A DNA stretch of 64,000 nt, taken from Dehalococcoidia bacterium. GTDB lineage: Bacteria > Chloroflexota > Dehalococcoidia > Lucifugimonadales > UBA3495. The notes below the pieces were generated by a model that saw only the letters and a list, made by a program, of their open reading frames with translations, searched no databases and was not told the DNA's origin. The translations under genes and the position numbers were made by a program. Positions 55,395 to 58,410 of this stretch are shown piece by piece. The stretch is taken from the NCBI GenBank assembly GCA_012959605.1, contig DUCU01000032.1, positions 70,455 through 134,454 on the forward strand, given 5' to 3'. The first letter of the stretch is position 1. Each line of letters begins with the position of its first letter.

Positions 55395-56342
55395 TTAGCT
55401 GATAAGTTGCTGCAGTGCGTCGGCACCCAGGTACTGGTCTAACAAACCAGTGAAGTGGTTTGCTTTGGTGATTGTGCGGGCGTCGGTTCGGTCCAGCAGT
55501 CCGGCCAATGACTCAGCTGTGTCCATTGTGTTGGTGCGCACCTGAATCAGTGGCACCTCCCGTTTCAGGGCTTCGGCTTTAATGTACTCGGTGGGTTCGC
55601 CGGGTCCGGTCAATACGATACAGCAGGTTTTGTCACACATGGAGGCCATCTGGATGTCTGGGCGTTCCACGCGGGTTATCACGGCTTGGTTGGGGTAGCG
55701 GTCAAAGTAGGTGGGGCCTTCATCCATGATGTTGCCGCCAATCATGAATCGTTCTACTGGAACGTCGGCATGCACCGGGTCCAGCACCCATTGTCCGCCC
55801 AGGTGGTTCGCCAGTTGTTCTATAGTCACAGTTAGCATTCCGCGACTTTCGGGTATCACGGCAACCGGCAGGGCTTGTCCGGCCAGGTCACGGGCAGCTT
55901 CGTTGCGGCGGTGAATAGGTGTTGCATTGACGATAATCCCAGCGAGCAAAGGCCCGGCTTGGGAGACTGAGTCAGAGATGAAAGCTTGCTGGGAGTATCT
56001 GTGTACCAGCACAACTTTGCCGCCGATATCTAGGGGTGTGGCAGCGTCGGGACCTTCAACGATTACCAGATCAACCTCGGATTGAAGGCTGGCAATGGCT
56101 GCCTGGGTGTTCGCTAAGTCGTGAGCGTCGATTGGCTTACCCGGAGTTGGCACCGATGGTCCACCATGAGATTGGAGTAACAAGCCGATGAAAGCGGCAT
56201 CTGCGTCCAAGCCCGGCGCGTCGGAGAACGCCTTATAGTAGGCAGCCTTCTTCCCAGCGGCGTTGGCTGCTACCAGCAACGCTGCTGCCAGGCTGGTCTT
56301 GCCAGCGCCAGACTGATTTCCCACTATCTGAAGGACGGCCAC
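55395..56342 (-). CDS. BioD-like P-loop / DRTGG domain protein
   Basis: GNQSGAGKTSLAAALL P-loop; MIGGNIMDEGPTYFDRYPNQAVITRVERPDIQMASM DRTGG-like. Confidence 0.75.
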   Translation of the reverse strand: MAVLQIVGNQSGAGKTSLAAALLVAANAAGKKAAYYKAFSDAPGLDADAAFIGLLLQSHGGPSVPTPGKPIDAHDLANTQAAIASLQSEVDLVIVEGPDAATPLDIGGKVVLVHRYSQQAFISDSVSQAGPLLAGIIVNATPIHRRNEAARDLAGQALPVAVIPESRGMLTVTIEQLANHLGGQWVLDPVHADVPVERFMIGGNIMDEGPTYFDRYPNQAVITRVERPDIQMASMCDKTCCIVLTGPGEPTEYIKAEALKREVPLIQVRTNTMDTAESLAGLLDRTDARTITKANHFTGLLDQYLGADALQQLIS

Positions 56343-56427
56343 AGAGTCTCCTTGATGCTTTACTGCCAGGTGTTTCTAGCCGAAATAATTCTAGCATAGT
56401 GGCCGTTTGCCACCGGCGAAGGGGATG

Positions 56428-57129
56428 CTACTCGTTCACGTCTTTGGGGCCGGTGTTCTCGGGGTCGAAATTATCCGGGAAAGTAGTGGTGTTGTCCCAC
56501 TTGGCTAGATTGAAGTCAGACCGGTGTAGGCTGGCCTGGGTGAAGCTGGCGCCGCGGAGGTCGGTGGCGACCCACATGGAGTCGCGGATCATAGCCAAGT
56601 GGAAGTCTGCGCCGACCATGTTGGCTCGGCTGAGGTCCGCTCCATTCATCATGGAAGAGTGGAAGCGTGTGTTGGTCATGTTGGTGTTTCTGAGGTCGGC
56701 CTCAATCATGTTGGACTGACTGAAATCGGCGTTGGTCAGGTCGGCCCCGATCAGGTTGACTCGATTCATGCGGCAACCCTTGACCTCAGCGCCCTTCATG
56801 CTGGCGCCTTTCATGTCGGTCCAGAAGAAATTTACGTTGTTTACGGTAGCACCAGACAGGTCAACGCCGGCCATGCCAGCTTGGCCAAAGTCTGCTTCGC
56901 TCAGGTCGGCGCCCGTGAGGTCTGAACCAGCCAGATTGGCCTTGCTTAGTCGGGCTTTGGTCAGATTTGCGCCCTTGAGGTTAGCTTCGTGGATCTTGGT
57001 TCCGGCTAGGTTTACGCCACTGAGATCGGCTCCTTCCAGGTCCAATTTCACATCGGGGTTGTTTTCTCGCCAGGAGTCCAGGGCATCCGGGCCGCTGGAG
57101 GCCAGTTTTACATGTTCTTGGTTAGCCAA
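56428..57129 (-). CDS. Pentapeptide repeat protein
   Basis: A(D/N)LxxA pentapeptide series (ANLKGANLTKARLSKANLAGSDLTGADLSEADF...). Confidence 0.92.
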   Translation of the reverse strand: MANQEHVKLASSGPDALDSWRENNPDVKLDLEGADLSGVNLAGTKIHEANLKGANLTKARLSKANLAGSDLTGADLSEADFGQAGMAGVDLSGATVNNVNFFWTDMKGASMKGAEVKGCRMNRVNLIGADLTNADFSQSNMIEADLRNTNMTNTRFHSSMMNGADLSRANMVGADFHLAMIRDSMWVATDLRGASFTQASLHRSDFNLAKWDNTTTFPDNFDPENTGPKDVNE

Positions 57130-57183
57130 AGTGTCGTACTCCGTTTACTGATCGTGGGGCTGAGCAGTTTGTTCACAAAAACA

Positions 57184-57208
57184 CAGCCCAGGATTTGCTC
57201 CCAGGCTG
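57184..57208 (-). terminator. Terminator after the SelW-like gene
   Basis: Minus strand CAGCCTGGGA-GCAAA-TCCTGGGCTG (10 pairs incl. two G-U), then TGTTTTT. Confidence 0.6.
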
Positions 57209-57240
57209 CGTAGTCCGGGCCATCGAGTTGGTTAGGGAAT

Positions 57241-57525
57241 TTAGGCTTCTTCAACCTCGAAAATTCTCTCGGCGATGGCCATTTTCAGTTCGTTGACCTT
57301 GCTCAAGTCGGGAAATGCTCCGGCTTCTTTTCGGTCGAAGATCTTTTCGCCATCCAGGAACACTTCCAGGCGTCCTTTATCTGAGGGAGTCATAGTGATG
57401 GCCACATCACCCGGTGCGTCGGACTTGAAGAATTCGTTCGCCAACCACGTGGCGACTGGGAAGTAGCCTCAAGCTACACAATAGATGATTTCAGCTTGTA
57501 CTTTTCCGTGTTCTGACCCTGCCAT
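57241..57525 (-). CDS. Rdx/SelW-like selenoprotein with in-frame UGA (Sec) in CVAU motif
   Basis: MAGSEHGKVQAEIIYCVA[U]GYFPVATWLANEFFKSDAPGDVAITMTPSDKGRLEVFLDGEKIFDRKEAGAFPDLSKVNELKMAIAERIFEVEEA; TGA at 57471-57469; the ORF track lists only the part after the TGA. Confidence 0.82.
57438..57455 (-). promoter_or_regulatory. Putative bacterial SECIS hairpin
   Basis: TCGCCA-CGTGGT-TGGCGA: 6-bp stem, 6-nt G-containing loop, starting 13 nt after the UGA. Confidence 0.55.
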
Positions 57526-57577
57526 TTGATCCTCCAATGTGTTGGTTCGCCGCCGGGTATATTCGAAGTATTAAATG

Positions 57578-58003
57578 TTAATTGATGACTGCAGTGCCGA
57601 TACCAACCGCAGTCCGGTTGCCATCCTGGTTATCGCAAAAGAGGTCAACGGATACTCTCGTGCCATTTGCAGTGTCTTCTGAACCGCTGACGGCTCCGGT
57701 GACGGTGATGGTATCGCCAGCCTTAACTGGCCTGAGGAATTTCAGGTTTACAGTGCCAGTGTGGTTGAAAACATCAGGTCCGAAGAATTTTCGCAAGCAC
57801 TCAGTGGCAAATGTAATCGACATGCGGCCTGAGGCTAGCGTGTAGGTGGTACCCAGCCGCTTGGCTGCCAACTCGGGGTTGTTGTGGATATTCTCCAAGT
57901 TTAGAATCCCAGTGGATTCAAACCCAAGAATAGATTTTTCCGTGATTTCTTTGGCGACGGAAGGAATCGTTTGCCCAGGTTCTATTTCTGTTCTGGATGC
58001 CAT
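57578..58003 (-). CDS. MaoC-like dehydratase
   Basis: LRKFFGPDVFNHTGTVNLKFLRPVKAGDTITVTGAVSG hotdog pattern. Confidence 0.75.
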   Translation of the reverse strand: MASRTEIEPGQTIPSVAKEITEKSILGFESTGILNLENIHNNPELAAKRLGTTYTLASGRMSITFATECLRKFFGPDVFNHTGTVNLKFLRPVKAGDTITVTGAVSGSEDTANGTRVSVDLFCDNQDGNRTAVGIGTAVIN

Positions 58004-58410
58004 TTTTTCCCCAACTCATCAGGCTTCTTTAGTTGATAGGTACTAAGTTTTTCGAGCATGCGACCGTCTTCATCGATGGCGGTCGCTTCAATGACGATGT
58101 AGGGTTTATCCCGGCGCAGGTATTTATCCGCGATGCGGCCGGTGACGATGATCTTCTTTCCGACCACCGGTGGGTTGAAAAACTCCACTTCGTTCCCGGC
58201 GTTCACGGTGCCTATGGGATCGGTATAGACCATGGCAAAGGCGGTGGCGTCGTGCTTCACGCCCAGGGTCGGAAATGACGCTTCCAGGTCGTCCACGGAG
58301 GCGCGGAAAGCATCCACCATCTCTTGGGTCAGAATGTATTCGTAAGACCCCAGTTCCTCGCCAATGACAACCTTGTCATAGCTAAATACTTTAAGTTCTG
58401 TATCGGCCAT
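57982..58410 (-). CDS. MaoC N-terminal-like hotdog protein
   Basis: GSYEYILTQEMVDAFRASV...EFFNPPVVGKKIIVTGRIADKYLRRDKPYIVIEATAIDEDG; overlaps the downstream MaoC gene. Confidence 0.7.
   Translation of the reverse strand: MADTELKVFSYDKVVIGEELGSYEYILTQEMVDAFRASVDDLEASFPTLGVKHDATAFAMVYTDPIGTVNAGNEVEFFNPPVVGKKIIVTGRIADKYLRRDKPYIVIEATAIDEDGRMLEKLSTYQLKKPDELGKKWHPEQK

Follow-up and report, generated by a model that had tools for sequence, protein, structure and literature searches.

The gene at 57241-57525 on the minus strand of the window (the whole 64,000-nucleotide stretch of Dehalococcoidia DNA analysed) is very probably a SelW-like selenoprotein of the Rdx family, and we infer that its UGA codon 19 is decoded as selenocysteine (Sec) via SelB, tRNA-Sec and a hairpin, a reading to which we assign a probability of about 0.97. 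The features of the gene and of its surroundings on which the description relies are listed below.

57241..57525 (-), Rdx/SelW-like gene, putative selenoprotein of 94 aa (MAGSEHGKVQAEIIYCVAU...), stop TAA; from the read-through translation, Pfam Rdx and TIGR02174
57469..57471 (-), in-frame TGA at codon 19, predicted to encode the U (Sec) of C-V-A-U; TGA in 14 of 14 close loci, Cys in homologues from Bacteroidota and in same-order genomes that lack selA
57438..57455 (-), candidate bacterial SECIS starting 13 nt after the TGA, with a 6-bp stem and a 6-nt loop, CGTGGT, whose second base is G
57531..57535 (-), Shine-Dalgarno-like GGAGG, 5 nt 5' of the ATG; read from the sequence
57578..58003 (-), MaoC-like protein, upstream neighbour; Pfam MaoC_dehydratas 32.4 bits (cut-off 27); upstream in 13 related loci
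57982..58410 (-), 142-aa protein, upstream neighbour; no Pfam match, a hydratase-like partner being a guess only
56428..57129 (-), pentapeptide-repeat protein, downstream neighbour; Pfam Pentapeptide 141 bits; adjoins the gene in 12 related loci

Reading frame and family assignment

The frame opens at an ATG at 57525 (-) and runs to a TAA ending at 57241, with the triplet 57471-57469 as its sole in-frame TGA; the list of open reading frames obtained with translation table 11 holds just a 67-aa frame from a TTG at 57444. A reading made earlier from the sequence alone (the sequence-only reading) had given this ATG, the TGA at 57469-57471 and the short TTG frame, all of which were confirmed by direct reading. 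It had also named the gene as Rdx/SelW-like, and this identity is borne out by two profiles that the read-through protein matches above their curated cut-offs, Pfam Rdx (PF10262; 52.4 bits, cut-off 22.6) and NCBIfam TIGR02174 CXXU_selWTH (47.4 bits, cut-off 34.2). The score against the equivalog SelTWH_Campy (NF041051) was 51.8 bits where more than 88 are required, and the gene was not filed under that subfamily. The C-V-A-U motif occupies residues 16-19 of the 94-aa protein, near the N-terminus of the Rdx domain. Solved SelW-related proteins also matched, the best being 2p0g (E = 1.1e-9), with the U column paired with Cys.

That the true product is the 67-aa frame from TTG 57444 alone, as table 11 delivers it, is hardly credible, given that this frame is devoid of the N-terminal Rdx part and of the redox motif, that the protein upstream of the TGA is conserved in relatives, that GGAGG precedes the ATG at 57525 and that the TTG lies at the 3' side of the hairpin loop.

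Seven other in-frame TGA candidates with redox-like motifs emerged when the window was scanned; by eye they look like out-of-frame or intergenic chance matches, and they were set aside.

Conservation of the TGA and of the hairpin

The scan for relatives, taking one genome per GTDB species, yielded 21 loci. Fourteen came from Chloroflexota/SAR202/Dehalococcoidia metagenome-assembled genomes (MAGs), two of them from one and the same MAG, with protein identities of 46-91%, and in every one of these 14 the corresponding codon is TGA, the motif reading CVAU, CVSU or CVPU. The remaining seven loci, from Bacteroidota (Foetidibacter, Larkinella, Chitinophaga), read CPKC. Two genomes of the same order as the window's host (G202 and G098), in which selA is absent, have the motif CVPC, with Cys at this site where the machinery is missing. 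The column is thus occupied by Sec (TGA) or by Cys in homologues, in agreement with the earlier proposal that the TGA stands at the second Cys of a CxxC motif and turns it into CxxU, and the reading frame and protein are conserved in relatives, as had been claimed from the homology continuing in one frame on both sides of the TGA.

The co-occurrence of such TGA codons with selA was examined across 301 sampled Chloroflexota genomes, 112 of which matched the window protein. At least one TGA-bearing Rdx match was present in 87 of the 112, all 87 with selA, and selA was missing from 7 of the 25 genomes without a TGA-bearing match (Fisher p = 1.3e-5, from counts tallied by hand and optimistic because the test takes no account of kinship among the genomes). 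Wherever a TGA-bearing locus was read, this codon fell within CxxU.

The hairpin TCGCCA-CGTGGT-TGGCGA occupies 57455-57438 (-), and its position 13 nt after the TGA and the G near the start of its loop are as the sequence-only reading had described them. Bacterial SECIS elements are described as having a guanosine in a small apical loop (PMC1088965), and the window hairpin shows this feature. The hairpin is embedded in a longer fold of the surrounding 54 nt, of which the apical hairpin is the conserved part. On its own merits the hairpin is only moderately unusual and not decisive: dinucleotide shuffling placed the 54-nt region at z = -1.87, and a hairpin of equal or greater stability arose in 64 of 1000 synonymous recodings. 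An Rfam search over 57000-58000 matched no family. Its synonymous sites, on the other hand, are nearly frozen in relatives. Among 12 sequences, three of the four stem codons for invariant residues never change, versus 2 of 42 such codons elsewhere in the gene, and mean codon entropy is 0.20 bits in the stem versus 1.14 bits elsewhere (Mann-Whitney p = 0.002). The stem codon that does vary (TTG/CTG) alters the last base of the loop, and a single position varies in the two stem arms across the 13 loci aligned. A paralogue on another contig of the same genome, described below, keeps GTCGCCACGTGGATGGCG despite 46% protein identity. The observation exceeds chance because the TGA and the stem are conserved in related MAGs and the genome holds complete Sec machinery.

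A more distant Rdx homologue (L036:2001-2246) has retained the TGA, as CVPU, with a downstream hairpin that is different and weaker.

These data bear on the possibility of a pseudogene or sequencing error, in which the TGA would be a broken Cys codon. Gene callers would indeed split a gene at such a TGA, and broken genes had been described elsewhere in the window. Against this stand the recurrence of this codon at 14 loci in related MAGs, the conservation of frame and protein on either side of it, the conserved hairpin and the complete Sec system. A sequencing error is very improbable when 14 related loci, spread over 13 other MAGs, share the TGA, and we consider a broken gene of either origin exceedingly improbable.

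Selenocysteine machinery in the genome

The assembly holding the window is a fragmented draft (2.8 Mb in 134 contigs, about 92% complete). It encodes SelA (563 bits), a 621-aa SelB (350 bits, cut-off 242), SelD (375 bits) and a tRNA-Sec (67 bits, gathering threshold 47), for which ARAGORN gave the anticodon TCA (UCA) and which is located at a contig end. The suggestion of the sequence-only reading that this organism decodes Sec is therefore upheld by the presence of selA, selB, selD and tRNA-Sec (UCA) in the genome. Given the fragmented draft and the position of tRNA-Sec at a contig end, mis-binning of single sel genes is formally possible.

The selD gene has an in-frame TGA of its own, in MAKSKVRLTELSHCAGU, at a site for which Sec is known from other SelD proteins. 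This gene (L077:3378-4424, on contig C133) is itself likely a selenoprotein gene, with the motif HCAGU. A second Rdx gene, on contig C108 (L074:3017-3301, minus strand), encodes MEGKFQIEITYCVSUQHH...; it matches Pfam Rdx, and its TGA likewise falls within CxxU. The hairpin of this CVSU paralogue has nearly the same sequence as that of the window gene.

A genome-wide reassignment of UGA (to Trp or Gly, for instance) in place of local recoding could not be told apart from Sec decoding on the basis of one gene with an in-frame TGA. It is, though, scarcely compatible with the remaining evidence and highly unlikely: table 11 gives normal reading and normal ends for the long frames of the window, TGA occurs at known Sec sites (HCAGU in SelD, CxxU in Rdx) and a tRNA-Sec with UCA is present.

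Under the selenoprotein reading, UGA codon 19 would be translated as Sec by SelB and tRNA-Sec (UCA), with the hairpin directly downstream acting as the bacterial SECIS that directs decoding. Many marine bacteria read UGA in this way. The product is predicted from its sequence to be a small thioredoxin-fold protein with C-V-A-U as its redox centre, and redox activity would be expected of it as a CxxU protein. By analogy with SelW, it is likely to form a selenenylsulfide and to undergo exchange with thiols.

Genomic context and comparison with known systems

The gene lies in a block (window 55395-58410) in which the 142-aa protein, the MaoC-like protein, the Rdx protein, the pentapeptide-repeat protein and a 315-aa protein with a P-loop-like start, also downstream of the Rdx gene, follow one another in an order kept in most related MAGs. 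It is conceivable, but rather unlikely, that the selenoprotein serves a specific redox step tied to this conserved block in SAR202-type Chloroflexota rather than a general thiol role.

A SAR202-like lineage of Chloroflexota thus carries a Sec system, and at least three of its genes, the two Rdx paralogues and that for SelD, have TGA at Sec positions and are of the kind that ordinary gene callers truncate. For SelW-like selenoproteins the figure given for the GOS set is 427 (PMC2398784), and three selenoproteins were tabulated for Chloroflexi in 2006 (PMC1794560). A limited literature search found no paper discussing selenoproteins in SAR202; the few SAR202 papers mentioning selenocysteine or selenium contained each term once. 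The window gene provides a named host group for a family known as the dominant one in ocean selenoproteomes, and could be of use in assigning SelW-like sequences of marine metagenomes.

Among characterized relatives, Cys-form SelW-related proteins such as those of PDB entries 2p0g and 2fa8 align over residues 8-84 of the window protein and have Cys where the latter would have Sec. Mammalian selenoprotein W (PDB 2npb), a protein with a CxxU motif, matched weakly by sequence across the domain (E = 0.006). Eukaryotes have the SECIS in the 3' UTR (PMC1088965), whereas the hairpin of the window gene lies within the coding sequence. The closest counterparts are bacterial SelW-like selenoproteins (Rdx, CxxU), which share the profile family, the CxxU motif and the UGA with a hairpin directly downstream. 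No difference in kind separates the window gene from these, its particulars being a SAR202-like Chloroflexota host and a lineage-specific hairpin sequence, and its classification as a further example of the known SelW-like family, and not as a new kind of thing, is well supported.
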